The position numbers and the translations under genes are program-made. The notes under the pieces were generated by a model that was given only the letters and a program-made list of their open reading frames with translations, did not search any database and was not told the DNA's origin. A stretch of 34,378 bases of DNA, taken from positions 1 through 34,378 of the forward strand of contig QIAU01000173.1 of NCBI GenBank assembly GCA_003225055.1, in the 5' to 3' direction. How positions within the stretch are numbered: position 1 is the stretch's first letter; every line of letters starts with the position of its first letter. The stretch is from Acidobacteriota bacterium (GTDB taxonomy: Bacteria; Acidobacteriota; Terriglobia; Terriglobales; Acidobacteriaceae). This document shows, in pieces, positions 5,574-14,023 of this stretch.

Positions 5574-7262
5574 CTAAATGTTTCCCTTCTTCATCTGCTG
5601 CACGGCATAATCACACGCGCGCGCTGTTAGTGCCATATATGTGAGCGATGGATTCACGCAGGACGACGAAACCATGGCCGCACCATCGGTGACGAACAGG
5701 TTTTTGACGTCATGCGCCTGATTATAGGAGTTAAGGACCGAAGTCTTCGGCTCGCGTCCCATACGGGCTGTTCCCATCTCATGAATCGAAAACCCTGGCG
5801 GATCATCGTCAGTGAAAGGCTCGATGGCTCTCGCTCCGGCTGCCGCCAACATCTCCGCCGCTGCAATCGACATATCTTTCCGGATTGCGCGTTCGTTCGC
5901 ACCCCAGGCGCAATGTATCTTCAATACCGGAATTCCCCACGCATCAACCTTCTCGCTGTCGAGCTCCGCGTAGTTATTATGATTCGGCAGGCATTCGCCG
6001 TACCCCTGAAAGCTGAACCGCCAGGGGCCGGGTCGGCTCAGCGACTGCTTAAGCTCCGGGCCAAATCCTCCCTGCAGGATTCCTCGCTCCCAGCCTTCAC
6101 GGTGTCCGCCTCCTTCGAAACCATATCCCCGCAGAAACTCGACTTGCTTTGTCCTCAGGTTTCGAAATCGCGGAACGTAAATCCCATTTGGCCGTCTGCC
6201 GATCACAGTGCGGTGTTCATTGCCAGGAATGATTGCTGTTGCTCCTCCACCCTTCACATGGTCCATCAGGTTGTGGCCCAGCTCCCCGCTCGAATTCGCC
6301 AGCCCGTTTGAAAATTCCGCAGTGGCAGAGTTGAACAAGATGCGCACCGATTCCAACGCGGAAGCGCACAGGAAAATCACTCTGCTGCGAAATTGCATTG
6401 TTGCGCCGGTCTCTGCGTCGATCACGCGTACTCCAGTCGCCTTGCGCGTTCGCGGATCAAAACTCACGCTGTGCACAATGCTGTGTGGCCGCAAGGTCAT
6501 TCGTCCAGTCATTTCCGCCGCCGGGAGCGTGGCGTTGACACTGCTGAAGTATGACCGGGTGATACACCCTCTTTCACAAGGGCCACAGTAATGGCAAGGT
6601 GCGCGGCCACGATGGCGTTCGGTCAAAACAGCCGCGCGCCCGATCGTCAACACGCGTTCTCCGCCGAAGGTTTTGGCAATTGCGTCTCGGACGACTGCCT
6701 CGGCGCAATTCAGCTCCATCGGCGGCAAAAATTTGCTGTCAGGTAACTGTGGCAGGCCCAGCGCCTCGCCGCTGATTCCGATGAAATCTTCCACGTAGTC
6801 GTACCAGGGCGCAATGTCTGCGTAACGAATCGGCCAATCAATGGCAATGCCTTCGCGAACGTTTGCTTCAAAATCCAAGTCGCTCCATCGGTAAACTTGG
6901 CGACCCCACGTTATCGAACGCCCACCTACCTGGCGGCCGCGAATCCACCGGAACGGCTTGCCGGGTTCCGTCGTGTAGGGATGCTCTTTGTCGTTTACGA
7001 AGAACTTCGCCGACCACTCATCACACGCATAACAAGTGCTCTGAATGGGCTGATCTTCCTGTAATCGGCGGCGATCGCGCATTCCCCGAAATTTCATCTC
7101 CCAAGACGGAACGTGCTCGACATAGTCTTTCCCCGGCTGAATTGGACGCCCAGCTTCGAGCACAAGGGTTTTCAATCCTTTCTCGGTCAACTCCTTCGCC
7201 GCCCACCCGCCGGTCATTCCGGAGCCGACTACAATCGCGTCGTAGCTCGTCTCAGCCTTCAC
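5574..7262 (-). CDS. GMC-family FAD oxidoreductase (sugar/polyol or glycoside dehydrogenase type)
   Basis: A 562-residue GMC oxidoreductase of normal length. The N-terminal Rossmann motif VVGSGMTGG (11-19) binds the FAD ADP moiety, followed by LVLEAG. The second GMC block is GRQVGGRSITWGRQVYRW (109-126). The C-terminal catalytic block has FSIHEMGTARMG (His494), then CVNPSLTYMALTARAC (Asn537), the usual His/Asn pair. A cysteine cluster CHYCGPCERGC (Cys223, 226, 229, 233) resembles the Cys-rich segment of membrane-linked FAD glucose dehydrogenases that carry a 3Fe-4S cluster; a second CxxC is at 77-80. It starts at GTG and lies 5 bases downstream of the small-subunit gene, so the pair is probably translated together. 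Likely role: periplasmic oxidation of a sugar or glycoside with electrons passed on; the substrate is unknown. Confidence 0.92.
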   Translation of the reverse strand: MKAETSYDAIVVGSGMTGGWAAKELTEKGLKTLVLEAGRPIQPGKDYVEHVPSWEMKFRGMRDRRRLQEDQPIQSTCYACDEWSAKFFVNDKEHPYTTEPGKPFRWIRGRQVGGRSITWGRQVYRWSDLDFEANVREGIAIDWPIRYADIAPWYDYVEDFIGISGEALGLPQLPDSKFLPPMELNCAEAVVRDAIAKTFGGERVLTIGRAAVLTERHRGRAPCHYCGPCERGCITRSYFSSVNATLPAAEMTGRMTLRPHSIVHSVSFDPRTRKATGVRVIDAETGATMQFRSRVIFLCASALESVRILFNSATAEFSNGLANSSGELGHNLMDHVKGGGATAIIPGNEHRTVIGRRPNGIYVPRFRNLRTKQVEFLRGYGFEGGGHREGWERGILQGGFGPELKQSLSRPGPWRFSFQGYGECLPNHNNYAELDSEKVDAWGIPVLKIHCAWGANERAIRKDMSIAAAEMLAAAGARAIEPFTDDDPPGFSIHEMGTARMGREPKTSVLNSYNQAHDVKNLFVTDGAAMVSSSCVNPSLTYMALTARACDYAVQQMKKGNI

Positions 7263-7267
7263 TGGTT

Positions 7268-7870
7268 CTATCGTCCCTTTTTCGTCTCTTGGTCATCCGC
7301 GCAACTGTCGTAGTGATTGGGCACCAATTCAAACCCTAGTTCTCTGATGGCCCCTTCTTCAGACGTGTAATAGCCCGTCAACGTGAGCCTTCGTATCATG
7401 TAGTAAAAGTTCCTTTCCGGCTTTGGCAGTGAACCTCGGTATGGCCGGGCATGATCTCGCACTGCTTCCGCCTCCTCATTCATCTGCTCTCCCAGTTCCG
7501 CTAGAACCGCTGCCTGCTGACGCAGCGAGCAATCGGCGAATTTTTTCTCAAACAACGATTGCGTGCGAGAGTCCACCTCTGCCAGACCGTTTAAGAAACA
7601 GTGCCGCTCCTCATCGCTATACCATTCGGTCAGAATCAGGTCGATGAATTGGTTCACGCCAACATCAGTAGCGCCCGGCGTCTCCGTCCTGGGAATGATC
7701 AGCTCTGCAATCGCAGTGACGGTTGCGTTTTGGTGGGAATCCAGGGTCCGCAGCCCGGTCTGGGTTCCGAGCACAACACGTGCCTCCTGCAGCGCTGCAA
7801 ATAGATTGCGTGGCGCCAGTTGGAGTGCCAGGCCCGTCGCCAGCAAACGCAGCGCTTCACGTCTCTCCAT
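7268..7870 (-). CDS. Gluconate 2-dehydrogenase subunit 3-like protein (Tat-type small subunit)
   Basis: A 200-residue protein starting MERREALRLLATGLALQL, a short Tat-like signal (RR followed by a hydrophobic stretch). The mature part contains the family pattern ELIIPRTETPGATDVGVNQFID (about residues 57-78), in two pieces ELIIPRTETPGA and GVNQFID, plus the later FYYMIRRLTLTGYYTSEEG. Small subunits of this type accompany GMC dehydrogenases and are needed for their export through Tat and for assembly. The gene lies immediately upstream of the GMC gene (gap 5 bases) as expected for a complex. No cytochrome c subunit gene is visible in the window, so the electron acceptor protein must be elsewhere or absent. 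Confidence 0.88.
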   Translation of the reverse strand: MERREALRLLATGLALQLAPRNLFAALQEARVVLGTQTGLRTLDSHQNATVTAIAELIIPRTETPGATDVGVNQFIDLILTEWYSDEERHCFLNGLAEVDSRTQSLFEKKFADCSLRQQAAVLAELGEQMNEEAEAVRDHARPYRGSLPKPERNFYYMIRRLTLTGYYTSEEGAIRELGFELVPNHYDSCADDQETKKGR

Positions 7871-8364
7871 AAGAACAAGCTCCGATCGTCGTCAACGTTC
7901 CCCAGCGTCTCTAGTTACTCAATCTGCTCACCGTTGTGACATGATATCTCTGACTGAAGATGAAATGTCGTGACAATTGGTGAGAGTAGGAGATCATGCG
8001 ACAGATGATCTTCTGCACCCAGGCAATGCGACGGCACCTGGATGCTACAAAGACAGAGGAGTTCAATGCAAATCACATGGATCGACGGCTCATCTAAACT
8101 ATATTGCCCCTCCCATTGGGCCCTCTCTCGATGAGACGACATGCCGAACCGCGAAAGAGACTTGGGCAGGAATTGCGGCAGATCCCGAACTAAGTGGCGC
8201 ATGAACCAGGAAGAGTGCGCTCACCTGGAAAGCACCTTACGAGTGTTTCACAAAGCACGCCAGCTGTAAGTGCCAGTATTTTTGTTAGCGGTCGCGTAAA
8301 CTGGGGCCAATAGCTACACTCTCAGGAAGGCTGGGAAATTTTCGGCTCTTTTACAAGGGCCTCA
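7871..8364. other. Intergenic region between divergent small-subunit gene and MFS relic
   Basis: About 490 bases between divergently oriented reading frames. It must contain the promoter of the dehydrogenase pair and formerly that of the MFS gene. Open frames of 75-95 codons on both strands have no recognisable motifs. I see no RNA gene, clear promoter or repeat. Confidence 0.5.
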
Positions 8365-9200
8365 ATGAGCGTCTTCTACGGCGGGTGGATTGTCCTCGCT
8401 GCGTTCCTGAATCTTTTCTTCTCGGTCGGGATCATCTACGGCTTCCCCGTCTTTTATCCCGCTATGGTCGATGCGCTCGGGTTTACCCGGGCGCAATTGA
8501 CTCAGGGCTTTCTGGTGGGATTCCTGCTGGCGGCTCTGTTATTCGGAATCCTGGCAGGCGTTCTGATCGACCGATTGGGATCTCGTCAGGTGATTCGGAT
8601 TGGAATTTGGTGCGTGGGGTTGCCGCTGATTCCCATGGGAAGCATGACACGCCTGTGGCAATACTATCTGCTCTGTATCATGGAAGTCGTCGTTACGTAC
8701 TGACCGGACTGACCGGACCTATTCCCAACCAGGTATTAAAGGCCAGGGATATTCCCTGAGTACAGCTTCCCGTATATCGAGTTCTCCACTGACTTCGAGC
8801 CTCGCAGGCCGGGTGATCGTTGGCTAGCTTGCCGATCACTACAACAGGAAGAATGTTATGGCCTTGTTTTACCTGGTGCTCGGACTGGCAATTCCCCTAC
8901 TGTTCGTGGCCCGAGCCTGCCGCCATCTGGGGATTTGCCATGCTTTTCGGCTTTGCGATGGGCGCCGACTACATGCTGATTCCGCTGGTGACGGCGGACT
9001 GCTTCGGCTGGCTTGTCGGCCTTGGGAAAGATCCTGTCTTTGATCATGATGGGATATTCACTCGGCCAATGGTTTGCACCTTGGATGGCGAAGAATCTTC
9101 GATGCCCGCCACAGCTATATAGGATCTTGCCTGGATCGTCATGGCCGCACGCTGCGACTGTGGGCGCTGCATTGATCTATGGGGTAACGCCGGAGGCGGG
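8365..9200 (+). pseudogene. Decayed major facilitator superfamily transporter
   Basis: The first 112 codons read well as an MFS N-terminus: GGWIVLAAFLNLFFSVGIIYG, GFLVGFLLAALLFGILAG, then the loop LIDRLGSRQV, a variant of the GxLxDRxGxR motif. At about 8697 the frame breaks; the next frame carries YVLTGLTGPIPNQVLKAR, with a small tandem duplication of ctgaccgga. Then a large internal piece is missing. From about 8910 come IWGFAMLFGFAMGADYMLIP and TADCFG, another shift to SALGKILSLIMMGYSLGQWF, and finally ALIYGVTP. Three frame changes, stops and a deletion of well over 100 residues make this a pseudogene. It lies between the GMC pair and the aldo/keto reductase, so it was probably the inner-membrane importer of the same catabolic block (inference). 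Confidence 0.8.
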
Positions 9201-10245: not shown

Positions 10246-10719
10246 CTCAGCCAGGATGCGCTCGACTGGAAGAAACTCGAGCTAAGAATTCAGCGGGGCG
10301 TGGTACTGCGAGTGCCCGGACGGGTGAAAACGATCAAGTCCAAAGCACCCATGCCGCCGGACCGAAATCTCGCGACGGTGTTCCTGCAGCACGCGCGCCG
10401 GAGCAATGTGCTCCCGGAGCCCGGCCAGTGGGTGTTCGTCAATCTGTCCACGGGCAAGCCGTAGCGGCCGTCGCACATCCAATCGAAGTACATTCGGCCT
10501 ACGGGAAAGACGGCCACAGGCGTCGACGGCGTTGGCTGGCACAACTTCCGTCATACCTTTTCCACCATGTTGCGGGAGCTGGGCACAGACCTAAAGGTCC
10601 AGCAGGAGTTGCTGCGCTACGCCGATATCTCGACGACGCTGGACGTGTATACCCAGGGCTCGGCAGTACAGAAGAGGGAAGCGGTCGGCAAGGTAGTCAG
10701 CATAGGGCTGCCCGCATAA
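10246..10719 (+). pseudogene. Truncated tyrosine recombinase (integrase) with in-frame TAG
   Basis: One frame reads the C-terminal half of a phage-type integrase: LDWKKLELRIQRGVV, the beta-hairpin lysine region RVKTIKSKAPMP, WVFVNLSTGKP, then a TAG stop (10462-10464), then in the same frame YIRPTGK, HNFRHTFSTMLRELG (HxxR box), KVQQELLRYADISTT and the catalytic Tyr in LDVYTQ. The N-terminal domain and the first catalytic Arg are missing. The usual His of the RHxDI box is Tyr (LLRYADI). Truncation, nonsense codon and a lost catalytic residue mark it as dead. It ends 84 bases from the 3' end of tRNA-His, the classic place for an integrated element. Confidence 0.85.
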
Positions 10720-10803: not shown

Positions 10804-10880
10804 TGGGGTGGGAGATGGGAATCGAACCCACAACGTCCGGAGCCACAGTCCGGTGCTCTGCCAGTTGAGCTACTCCCACC
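10804..10880 (-). tRNA. tRNA-His (anticodon GTG)
   Basis: The minus strand folds into a full cloverleaf: acceptor GTGGGAG pairing with CTCCCAC, D-arm GCTC...GAGC, anticodon stem CCGGA/TCCGG around the loop CTGTGGC (anticodon GTG), and T-arm with GGTTCGATTCC. The extra 5' G (G-1, at 10880) opposite C73 is the identity mark of tRNA-His. The 3' CCA is encoded (10804-10806). An integrase relic lies just beyond its 3' end. Confidence 0.96.
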
Positions 10881-11013: not shown

Positions 11014-12282
11014 CTAAATCCGACCGATGCCGACGTACTCGTATCCCATCGCACGCAAGCGAGTGCCGTCGAGCAGGTTTTTGGTGTCGAAGATGAGCGG
11101 ACGCTTCAAGAGCTGTTTGATGCGATCAAAATCCAAGGAACGAAATTCGGCCCACCCGGTGCCGACCACCAGGGCGTCGGCGCCTTCGGCGGCGGCATAC
11201 GGGGAATCACAATAGTGGACCGCTCCATTCAGCTCCAGCTTGGCTTCGGGAATGGCGACTGGATCATAGGCGCGCACCCGTGCCCCTCTATCGATCAGGC
11301 TCTGCGCCAGGCGCATGGCAGCCGATCCCGCGACGGAATTCGTATTCGGCTTGAAGGCTAGGCCGAGAATGCCAACGTCTTTGTTCTGCAACGAGTCGAC
11401 CACGCGACTGATCCGGTCGATCATGCGATCCGCTAATGAGTGATTGACCTCGCGAGCCGCGCCGAGCACCTTGAGGGTTACGCCGCTTTCGCGCGCCAGT
11501 TCAGCCAGGGCTTCCATATCGGATTCGGCGAAGCGCCCGCCCATGCCCGCTCCCGGTTGCAGGCATCGAGGAGCGATTTTCTTGTCCAACCCCAATGCCA
11601 GGGAGAGGCTTACGGCGTCGGCATTGACGCACTCGCACAAGCTCGCCAATTCGTTGATGAACGAGATCTTGGTTGCCACAAACGCAGTTACTGCCTCGCG
11701 CACCAGTTCCGCTGTCTCGTGATTGGTCACAATGACCGGCACGCCGCGCATGACCAAGGGATGGTAAATCTGCTTCAATGCCAGCACTGCTTCATGCGAG
11801 GAGGTGCCGAGGACGATCCGGTCCGGCCAGTTAAAGTCTTCCACGGCGCAGCCGTTCGTAAAGAACATAGGCTGCGACACCACGGTTGCTGTCAGACTGT
11901 TCTCGATCAACTGCCGCTCGACCCGCGATGCCGTACCAACAGGAACCGGCGTAGTTACCACGAACGTGTGAGCTCTGGGGGCGAGCCGGGTAATGCGCAC
12001 TGCGATATCGCCGAGGTGTTCAGGGCTATCTTCGGCCAGGAAGATCACTCCAACCTTGCGGGCAAAAGCCTCGATATCCGTGGAGTAGGCCAAACGGCCG
12101 CAGCGCACGTTGCGCCGAATGACCTCCTTGAGATTGCGCTCGAAAAAAGGGATGCTGCCCTGCGCCATCTCGACCATGCGCGAACTGTCAGAGTGGCAAC
12201 AAGTTACAGGAACCCCGAAATCGGCCAGACAGGCGGAGATTACTGTGCCCAGGTACCCTGAACCGTAAACTCCGATCTGCAT
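11014..12282 (-). CDS. UDP-glucose/GDP-mannose dehydrogenase-like protein lacking catalytic residues
   Basis: A 422-residue protein with the architecture of UDP-glucose 6-dehydrogenases. It has an N-terminal Rossmann fold (GVYGSGYLGTVISACLADFG), a central helical domain (FVATKISFINELA, Lys205 region) and a C-terminal Rossmann-like domain (GILGLAFKPNT, then ARVRAYDPVA). Key catalytic parts are altered. The family block GGSCFPKD is GGRFAESD (248-255), so the nucleophilic Cys and the Lys are gone. PEFLREG has become PMFFTNG, removing the catalytic Glu. FKPNTDD has become FKPNTNS. The frame is open and normal in length, so this is a conserved-looking paralogue, not a wreck. I start it at the ATG at 12282 (start of the Rossmann strand, preceded by AGAGGGG). 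An upstream in-frame start at 12387 would add 35 unrelated residues. Function unknown; ordinary UDP-glucuronate synthesis is unlikely. Confidence 0.85.
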   Translation of the reverse strand: MQIGVYGSGYLGTVISACLADFGVPVTCCHSDSSRMVEMAQGSIPFFERNLKEVIRRNVRCGRLAYSTDIEAFARKVGVIFLAEDSPEHLGDIAVRITRLAPRAHTFVVTTPVPVGTASRVERQLIENSLTATVVSQPMFFTNGCAVEDFNWPDRIVLGTSSHEAVLALKQIYHPLVMRGVPVIVTNHETAELVREAVTAFVATKISFINELASLCECVNADAVSLSLALGLDKKIAPRCLQPGAGMGGRFAESDMEALAELARESGVTLKVLGAAREVNHSLADRMIDRISRVVDSLQNKDVGILGLAFKPNTNSVAGSAAMRLAQSLIDRGARVRAYDPVAIPEAKLELNGAVHYCDSPYAAAEGADALVVGTGWAEFRSLDFDRIKQLLKRPLIFDTKNLLDGTRLRAMGYEYVGIGRI

Positions 12283-12369
12283 GATCTGCCCCTCTGGCGG
12301 ACACTTGCCGCTTTGCCGTGCCGCGATCCGACCGCGATAGGCGGATTCCCCACCTTCTTGTGTACCCTC

Positions 12370-12407
12370 GTACATACCCACGTGCAATGCACGGGAGGGT
12401 TATGTAC
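12370..12407. repeat. Long imperfect hairpin between two minus-strand genes
   Basis: The arms GTACATACCC (12370-12379) and GGGTTATGTAC (12397-12407) pair over 10 base pairs with one bulge. An inner stem CGTGC-AAT-GCACG (12381-12393) sits in the loop. It lies in the 190-base gap between the 2H phosphoesterase gene and the dehydrogenase-like gene. No T-run follows on either strand, so it is more likely an operator, a processing site or a small mobile repeat than a simple terminator. Confidence 0.6.
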
Positions 12408-12474
12408 CAACGGGGCAGACGGGAAAGTACCGGAAAGCAAGTCTGGCTTAGCGCAACTATCGAAACACAGGGAC

Positions 12475-13056
12475 TTACCGGCTCTTGCCGGACACCAGGC
12501 TGCGGCCCAGAGGGATAGGCGCCAGGTCAACCCAGGTGTTCTTTTCGCCTTCCCGCACGAAGGTAAGTTCGTCGACGGCAATGCGCCGGTTTCCTTCATA
12601 CCGGTTCCAGCGTTCTCGGGCGATCTCGAATGCTCGCAGCGCCTGCTCCTCGGCGGCCATCTTAACGATCGTCAGATGAGGCATATAGGGCCATTGCTCC
12701 TCGGATGAGAGGATCCCCGAGTTAAGCCGCTCGTGTAGCTCCCGCATACGGTACGCCGCATGTGCTACCCGGATGAAGACCGTGGGCGTAACCGGAACGA
12801 AGGTTTCGACCTCTCCCAACACCATCTCGAACGGATCTACCTGGCGACACATTTCGCCCAGTGTTTCCAAGGCCGTAGCTTCGTTCGGCGGGGGCGTAGC
12901 CCGATTGTTGCCGGCAGCCAGATAACGGGGAGGAAGGACGGTCAGATGCGCGGGCAGGTGGGGCAGTTCGGGATGCAGCTCGCGCCGGAGACCCTCGACA
13001 AATTCCCCGACCGGATGCTTGACATAAGACACCAGCGCGTATCGCGGGTTCAGCAT
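12475..13056 (-). CDS. 2'-5' RNA ligase / 2H phosphoesterase superfamily protein
   Basis: A 193-residue protein with the two HxT motifs that define the 2H superfamily: PAHLTVLPPR (His37-Leu-Thr39) and MPHLTIVKM (His127-Leu-Thr129), about 90 residues apart as in LigT/ThpR-like proteins. The N-terminus RYALVSYVKHPVGEFVEGLR and the inter-motif strand VFIRVAHA fit the bilobal fold. These enzymes hydrolyse or form cyclic or 2'-5' phosphodiester bonds; the substrate is not predictable. It is on the same strand as the dehydrogenase-like gene 190 bases downstream, but the large gap with a hairpin argues against tight coupling. Confidence 0.85.
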   Translation of the reverse strand: MLNPRYALVSYVKHPVGEFVEGLRRELHPELPHLPAHLTVLPPRYLAAGNNRATPPPNEATALETLGEMCRQVDPFEMVLGEVETFVPVTPTVFIRVAHAAYRMRELHERLNSGILSSEEQWPYMPHLTIVKMAAEEQALRAFEIARERWNRYEGNRRIAVDELTFVREGEKNTWVDLAPIPLGRSLVSGKSR

Positions 13057-13172: not shown

Positions 13173-13488
13173 GCGCGCGATCTGGGAAACATTTGTGTTC
13201 GCCCAATTGCGGGCCCGCGAACGCCGTGAAGGAAGAGTGGGGAGCCTGTTCTTCTGGCGTGACCGCACGCGAGAGGTGGACTTCGTAGCGGATGTGGCCG
13301 GGCGCTTGGAGCTATTCGAAGCGAAGTGGAACGAAGTCCCGACGGTCGGAGACACAGTCAACCTGGAGTTCGTCCGCAAGGTGGTTGGGAAGTCGCGGAT
13401 AGCCACCGGCGCGGTAGTTTGCCGCACCCTGAAGGGCTATCCCCTTGCCAACGGATTTCGGGCGTTGCCAGTAACGGCGCTGGATTAG
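13165..13488 (+). pseudogene. C-terminal relic of a DUF4143-type AAA ATPase
   Basis: From about 13174 the plus-strand frame reads ARAIWETFVFAQLRARERRE, then LFFWRDRTREVDFVAD, ELFEAKWNEVPT and a C-terminal LANGFRALPVTALD before the stop at 13486-13488. This is the end of the prokaryotic ATPase family with a C-terminal DUF4143 PD-(D/E)xK-like domain (pattern WRDRxxxEVDF...FEAK). Only about 105 of some 400 residues remain, and the ATPase domain is absent. The fragment begins immediately after, or within, the tRNA-Pro 5' fragment, and no start codon with a ribosome-binding site exists. It is a recombination remnant. Confidence 0.75.
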
Positions 13489-13946: not shown

Positions 13947-14023
13947 CGGGGCGTAGCGCAGCCTGGTAGCGCACCTGCCTTGGGCGCAGGGGGTCGTTGG
14001 TTCAAATCCAATCGCCCCGACCA
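13947..14023 (+). tRNA. tRNA-Pro (anticodon TGG)
   Basis: A complete cloverleaf: acceptor CGGGGCG/CGCCCCG, D-arm GCGC...GCGC, anticodon stem CCTGC/GCAGG around the loop CTTGGGC (anticodon TGG), and T-loop TTCAAAT. Discriminator A73 is at 14020 and an encoded CCA at 14021-14023. Its first 16 bases are duplicated about 790 bases upstream. Confidence 0.95.

Follow-up and report, generated by a model that had tools for sequence, protein, structure and literature searches.

A clade of UDP-glucose dehydrogenase (UGD)-fold proteins, hereafter pUGD, has, across many soil acidobacteria, lost most of the catalytic residues of UGD and carries a different, mostly invariant set in their place, and its gene is recurrently accompanied by that of a 2H phosphoesterase. 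The exchange of the active site for a fixed set of residues, the strong selection acting on the gene and the 2H neighbor suggest that pUGD probably has a different job. It is almost certainly not a UGD, and we lean toward viewing it as a neofunctionalized non-dehydrogenase, either a binding or scaffold protein or a redirected enzyme, working with the 2H phosphoesterase.

The UGD fold and the retention of inactive homologs are known, whereas the UGD-fold clade with a replaced active site and its 2H link are new here. A literature search with few subscription papers within reach returned nothing that describes a clade of inactive UGDs, or a UGD or nucleotide sugar dehydrogenase 'pseudoenzyme'. 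The columns that are constant but different from canonical UGDs, in genomes that mostly have another UGD-family gene (14 of 16 checked), amount to a natural experiment on the repurposing of a catalytic scaffold, and the linked 2H phosphoesterase offers a concrete partner for functional tests.

A UGD fold with a replaced active site

We analyzed a 34,378-nucleotide stretch of acidobacterial DNA (the window), in which pUGD is encoded on the minus strand at positions 11014-12282, with its ATG at 12282 and its stop at 11014 (Table 1). The coordinates given in a preliminary description of this DNA hold; the strand is minus, and the plus-strand frame is interrupted by stops. That description had also read the gene as a full-length 422-residue UGD-like frame with intact fold landmarks, in agreement with our detection of PF03721, PF00984 and PF03720, each above its cut-off and in the order N-terminal NAD, central and C-terminal UDP domain. 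With TIGR03026, the general model for nucleotide-sugar dehydrogenases, the score is 286.6 bits against a cut-off of 189.8, and the closest solved sequences are UGDs, 4a7p first. The UGD equivalogs TuaD and AglM reach 315.8 and 258.2 bits, in neither case even half of the cut-off (700 and 670), but these models were built for particular lineages and failing them proves little alone. By fold and sequence, pUGD belongs to the UDP-glucose/GDP-mannose dehydrogenase superfamily. As it lies far above the TIGR03026 cut-off, automatic annotation likely credits it with being a UDP-glucuronate-making enzyme, which it probably is not.

Table 1. Features of the pUGD locus, in window coordinates
Feature	Position	Strand	Conservation or basis
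tRNA-His(gtg), downstream border of the pUGD/2H pair	10804..10879	-	in 34/46 scanned loci
pUGD gene, 422 aa	11014..12282	-	frame, domain profiles, alignments, fold model
GGRFAESD (residues 248-255) replacing GGSCFPKD; Phe251 in Cys column, Asp255 kept	11518..11541	-	gap-free alignment
Cys240 at canonical Phe column	11563..11565	-	87/87 Cys vs Phe in 31/31
Residues 195-199: Arg195 (catalytic Lys column), Thr199 (Asn column)	11686..11700	-	each 87/87
PMFFTNG (residues 138-144) replacing PEFLREG, then invariant Cys145	11851..11871	-	alignments
Pro112, Thr column of STVP loop	11947..11949	-	87/87 Pro vs Thr in 31/31 canonical
Promoter-like block: GTACAT box, CGTG, TTGC, TA-rich hexamer	12358..12413	-	conserved upstream of pUGD
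2H phosphoesterase (PF13563), 193 aa, HLTV and HLTI motifs	12475..13056	-	PF13563 74.5 bits, cut-off 27
tRNA-Pro(tgg), upstream border, opposite strand	13947..14023	+	in 27/46 scanned loci

The UGD fold is kept in pUGD according to structure prediction. An AlphaFold2 model computed from 34 pUGD and 23 canonical sequences has a mean pLDDT of 92.1 and superimposes on 4a7p with a Z score of 48.1 and an r.m.s.d. of 1.6 Å over 416 residues. A first model, built from 69 pUGD sequences alone, was set aside as its halves were misplaced (r.m.s.d. of about 23 Å); since it arranged the halves differently, the 23 canonical sequences in the alignment may have influenced the domain arrangement of the mixed model.

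To describe the active site, we counted residues in 87 non-redundant pUGDs drawn from 129 clade loci, many of which represent one genome present in two collections; near-identical or end-cut sequences were excluded, and two of the loci (L114 and L133) are short. The canonical set of 31 sequences, chosen by similarity to the query, comprises the 26 top-ranking matches found outside the family but within the phylum, and five UGD-family genes of the same family.

A study of human UGD (PMC3184952) outlines the roles of the relevant residues: Cys276 forms the covalent adduct and is adjoined by Asn224, Lys220 stabilizes charge, Thr131 and Asp280 serve NAD and the catalytic water, the latter being bound by Asp280, and a Glu161 mutant traps an intermediate. 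It also describes Arg260 as spanning the dimer and residues 265-280 as wrapping UDP-glucose.

Five of these six catalytic positions are changed in the window pUGD (Thr to Pro, Glu to Met, Lys to Arg, Asn to Thr and Cys to Phe) and the Asp is kept. At least five are lost in all 87 pUGDs and none in any of the 31 canonical sequences. Pro112, Arg195, Thr199 and Phe251 are invariant replacements in the 87 pUGDs, the last standing where all 31 canonical sequences have Cys; a His occupies position 195 in one further, end-cut sequence (L021, identical to L071, the same contig in two collections). Residue 139, the Glu of PEFL, is M, V, L, I or T across the clade and never E. Residue 255, in the column of human Asp280, is Asp in 79 of the 87, including the window protein, Glu in six and Gln in two.

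The replaced blocks align without gaps to their canonical counterparts (GGRFAESD with GGSCFPKD, PMFFTNG with PEFLREG and FKPNTNS with FKPNTDD), which bears out the changes reported in the preliminary description for the first two and for NTNS. Its claim that several catalytic positions are lost stands and proves too narrow, as the equivalents of Thr131 (Pro112), Lys220 and Asn224 are gone as well. It had also described the segment around Lys205 as kept: Lys205 is indeed present, but the catalytic Lys is not, as human Lys220 aligns to Arg195 and Asn224 to Thr199.

A catalytic Cys in a shifted position would have spoken against the loss. Cys240 does stand 11 residues before the Cys column, but it occupies its own gap-free column, in which all 31 canonical sequences have Phe, and the alignment is gap-free across the block; we therefore excluded a misaligned catalytic Cys and interpret Cys240 as a new residue. 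Clade and canonical sequences have thus swapped Phe and Cys reciprocally between columns 240 and 251. By constant offset, Cys240 corresponds to human residue 265. A second cysteine, Cys145, is likewise invariant in the 87 pUGDs.

Changes extend beyond the catalytic positions. Gly85 of the AVGTP loop is replaced by an invariant Asp in 87/87, and residue 30, Asp in canonical UGDs, is mostly His (67 of the 87, with Asp in 19); we take both columns to contact NAD. The canonical Arg at position 401 has become an invariant Lys, and Lys311, Gly7 and Gly9 are retained. Lys311 and Lys401 presumably match Lys339 and Arg442 of human UGD, and we assume that the Arg equivalent to Lys401 contacts UDP. Overall, the two groups each have a characteristic residue, but not the same one, in 32 columns (frequency of 90% or more in the clade and of 80% or more in the canonical set), whereas 56 columns reach a conservation of at least 95% in clade and canonical set alike. 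pUGD therefore shares its length and three-domain fold with UGDHs such as Sphingomonas elodea UgdG (4a7p), BceC (2y0c-2y0e) and human UGDH (2q3e), and differs from them by its replaced Thr, Glu, Lys, Asn and Cys, by Lys401 in place of Arg, by Asp in place of Gly85 and by the invariant Cys240 and Cys145.

An apparently family-specific clade and its probable 2H phosphoesterase partner

Clade members were found in at least 50 of 100 genomes of the family, at 58-81% identity to the window pUGD over most of its length, a few of the 50 holding them as contig-edge fragments or in pieces; canonical paralogs in the family show about 40% identity or less, among the matches listed. A clade member is present in 86 of 298 genomes of the order (E 1e-120) and in 12 of 299 of the class (E 1e-110), all of them from the same family. 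In the phylum, 147 of 297 genomes give a match at E 1e-80, with identities of 43% at most outside the family, and the 26 best out-of-family matches all carry the canonical residues. The best 80 of 109 relatives all belong to Acidobacteriota groups (for example, Terriglobia, Acidobacteriaceae and Candidatus Sulfotelmatobacter). As far as sampled, the clade is confined to one acidobacterial family. One genome of the same genus as that of the window (G059, 97% complete, 750 contigs) has neither a pUGD clade member nor the 2H gene among the matches listed.

In a quick tree of 61 sequences (29 of the 87 pUGDs and 32 others, two of which, L003 and L130, form long branches), pUGD forms a single clade, split off by a branch of 1.52 changes per column with an SH-aLRT support of 100. 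The median pairwise dN/dS is 0.057 (5-95% range 0.036-0.100) over 695 pairs with 80-98.5% amino acid identity and dS of 0.05-1.5, which are non-independent, include genomes from two collections and have synonymous sites near saturation (median dS 1.25). Sequence conservation is also visible in 85 invariant columns among 69 pUGDs, and of the 27 genomes in which pUGD and PheT both match nearly over their full length, among the matches listed, 26 have a pUGD that is more similar to the window's than their PheT is, with one tie (judged by eye).

The pattern of loss is not decay. The preliminary description had favored a retained pseudoenzyme or a redirected enzyme over random decay, had proposed tree and dN/dS analyses and had held that absence of the variant from all relatives would count against it. 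Its reading agrees with the single clade with maximal support, the same losses in 87/87 and the low dN/dS, and the variant is far from absent in relatives. With its lost catalytic residues, its purifying selection and its orthologous clade, pUGD resembles a pseudoenzyme: like pseudoenzymes in general, it has kept fold and conservation, and unlike them, it has mostly replaced what it lost by an equally invariant set and is linked to a phosphoesterase.

The 2H phosphoesterase gene, which the preliminary description had omitted, lies upstream of pUGD (Table 1). His37, His127 and Thr129 are invariant in 90 non-redundant 2H sequences, and the Thr39 column is conserved in fewer than 90%. Like LigT and YjcG (2d4g, PF13563), the protein has both HxTx motifs; unlike them, it is linked to a UGD-fold gene, and its similarity to them is weak, the only solved relative found being Bacillus subtilis BSU11850 (E 6.7e-07 to 2d4g). 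Those of its relatives that have been characterized use cyclic phosphates of nucleotides or RNA as substrates. Many 2H phosphoesterases have no known physiological function, according to a further paper (PMC5283653).

Among 99 loci with flanks, the 2H gene stands upstream and on the same strand in 85 and is the sole frequent protein neighbor; three more groups of ORFs are frequent but merely alternative frames overlapping one of the two genes, and the most common group beyond these occurs in 22/99. In a tblastn search, 110 of 129 pUGD loci, a set that counts some genomes twice, had the 2H gene within 2.5 kb upstream and in the same orientation, and for 102 of these 110 the distance to the pUGD match is 132-329 bp. 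Among the 19 remaining loci, five have less than 270 bp of upstream sequence and three (two being the same contig) carry 2H further upstream. None of the 31 canonical UGDs adjoins a 2H gene in the upstream flanks examined, most of which span only 1.5 kb.

The two genes also tend to be present or absent together. Among the matches listed for the 100 family genomes, in which some of those scored as having neither gene may hold weak pUGD fragments, 46 have both genes, 46 neither, four only 2H (G013, G055, G061 and G063) and four only pUGD (G050 and G054, and contig-edge fragments in G071 and G074). In G055 and G013, pUGD is gone and 2H lies directly before the tRNA-His gene. A PheT tree of 61 of the 100 genomes, the window's own included, provided 11 independent pairs differing in pUGD, of which on average 9.0 differed in 2H the same way and 0.2 the opposite way; the sign test gave a median p of 0.0039, a statistic that treats the losses as more independent than they are, since both genes can vanish with a single deletion or missing contig. 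Seven of the other genomes had no PheT match and 32 were left out of the tree (G076 and G096, with pUGD and 2H, and 30 with neither). Two genomes keep both genes though separated, which counts against mere linkage: in G092, they lie on different contigs and the 6 kb upstream of pUGD is free of 2H, and in G006, they are 4.6 kb apart with other ORFs between them. A functional link between pUGD and the 2H enzyme is likely, although the genomes with only one of the two genes count against it.

Possible roles of pUGD

We propose that pUGD is a UGD-fold protein that has given up NAD-dependent sugar-nucleotide dehydrogenation, its new, mostly invariant residue set being kept by strong purifying selection. 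The water-binding Asp, present at position 255 in most members, counts against this view. The cleft between the Rossmann domains might still bind a nucleotide-type ligand, as suggested by the retained Lys311 and the invariant Lys401, and the cofactor contacts would be altered, given the invariant Asp at position 85 and the His at position 30 in most members. pUGD and the 2H enzyme would serve a common process, in which pUGD would bind a ligand or provide a scaffold. Whether its role is non-catalytic, in binding or sensing, or that of a redirected catalyst is in our view evenly poised. An anti-phage role found no support: neither pUGD nor 2H had a match in PADLOC at E 0.01, a result that leaves room for one.

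The most substantial alternative, although we consider it somewhat improbable, is a redirected enzyme in which the same cleft would carry out a different reaction with Cys240, Cys145 or both as active residues, and in which 2H would act on the substrate or the product. The invariance of the two cysteines fits this possibility, as do the reciprocal Phe/Cys exchange that turned the Cys column into an invariant Phe and the retention of Asp255 in 79 of the 87 sequences. In the human UGD study, moreover, the position of Cys240 (human 265) opens the UDP-glucose-wrapping segment (PMC3184952). Pro in place of the Thr of the nicotinamide-side loop and Asp in place of the Gly of the GTP loop count against it and make hydride chemistry look unlikely, and no known chemistry that we can name fits. 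Our estimate for this alternative overlaps with that for a non-dehydrogenase working with 2H, and both share the premise that pUGD is not a UGD. More speculatively, and in our opinion unlikely, the UGD scaffold may have given rise to a new enzyme or sensor whose ligand would be a sugar nucleotide or a cyclic phosphate derived from a nucleotide, its active Cys having moved from 251 to 240 by the Phe/Cys exchange; with 2H, it would form a family-specific module of two proteins that processes metabolites or RNA ends.

It is rather implausible that pUGD is a regulatory subunit tuning an active paralog within mixed hexamers with canonical UGD. Human UGD is a hexamer of dimers, according to the same study (PMC3184952), and potential partners exist: the window's genome encodes three more UGD-family genes above the cut-off, two of them with intact motifs, which answers the search for a second, canonical ugd suggested in the preliminary description, and 14 of 16 pUGD-bearing genomes checked hold another UGD-family gene. 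However, the other two, G060 (completeness 100) and G091 (98), keep pUGD with no other PF03721 gene over the cut-off; there, pUGD is probably independent of a canonical UGD rather than merely its regulator. The only recurrent protein neighbor, moreover, is the 2H gene.

That pUGD still oxidizes sugar nucleotides by means of an unusual active site is more improbable still: the retained Gly7, Gly9, Lys311 and, mostly, Asp255 are what such an enzyme would keep, but every member would have to work with no more than one of the six catalytic residues and with the altered NAD contacts suggested by the changes at positions 85 (87/87) and 30 (67/87). We dismiss a decaying pseudogene or an annotation or assembly artifact, since among the clade matches listed only that of G053 has a frame interrupted by stops; all others, including the one in G032, a genome assembled as a single contig, are open, and the dN/dS and the invariant columns described above also speak against decay.

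Upstream block and genomic surroundings

A promoter-like block precedes pUGD (Table 1) and is probably non-coding, as indels distinguish the relatives in this stretch. Of 86 loci, 60 have GTACAT in the 200 nt upstream, versus 2.7 in mononucleotide shuffles, and a loose -35/-10 pattern is present in 38 of the 86, versus 3.9 in shuffles. A position matrix for the block was trained on the sequences that it scored and its scores do not constitute independent evidence. A generic sigma-70 scan missed the block and reported one other site, no more than expected by chance; a promoter role for the block is therefore putative. We also considered a regulon sharing the upstream box and rejected it: allowing three mismatches at most, the 24-base core matched nowhere else in the genome of the window, and hence gave no functional hint. 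In a subclade (including L095 and L103), the box is a palindrome, GTACATGTAC, which suggests a dedicated regulator.

The pUGD/2H pair is bordered by two tRNA genes, which were the only RNA elements found by Rfam at gathering scores between positions 8000 and 16000 of the window. Pfam scans of eight neighboring ORFs fit the previous placement of the gene outside any polysaccharide cluster, and the tRNA-linked integrase relic reported nearby fits by motif reading only: a C-terminal piece reading as a tyrosine recombinase, judged by eye, adjoins the tRNA-His gene (10465-10719, plus strand). Of 99 related loci, nine have an integrase-like ORF of about 370 residues after the pair; such ORFs beside the pair suggest that tRNA-His may be a recurrent insertion site.

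Further remnants and genes lie on either side. On the plus strand, positions 13195-13488 hold a DUF4143 C-terminal remnant, below the Pfam cut-off, and positions 8365-9122 an MFS transporter apparently in pieces, the first of which matches PF07690 below its cut-off. On the minus strand, a GMC oxidoreductase gene and a gluconate 2-dehydrogenase subunit 3-like gene (5574-7870) likely encode a membrane sugar dehydrogenase pair.
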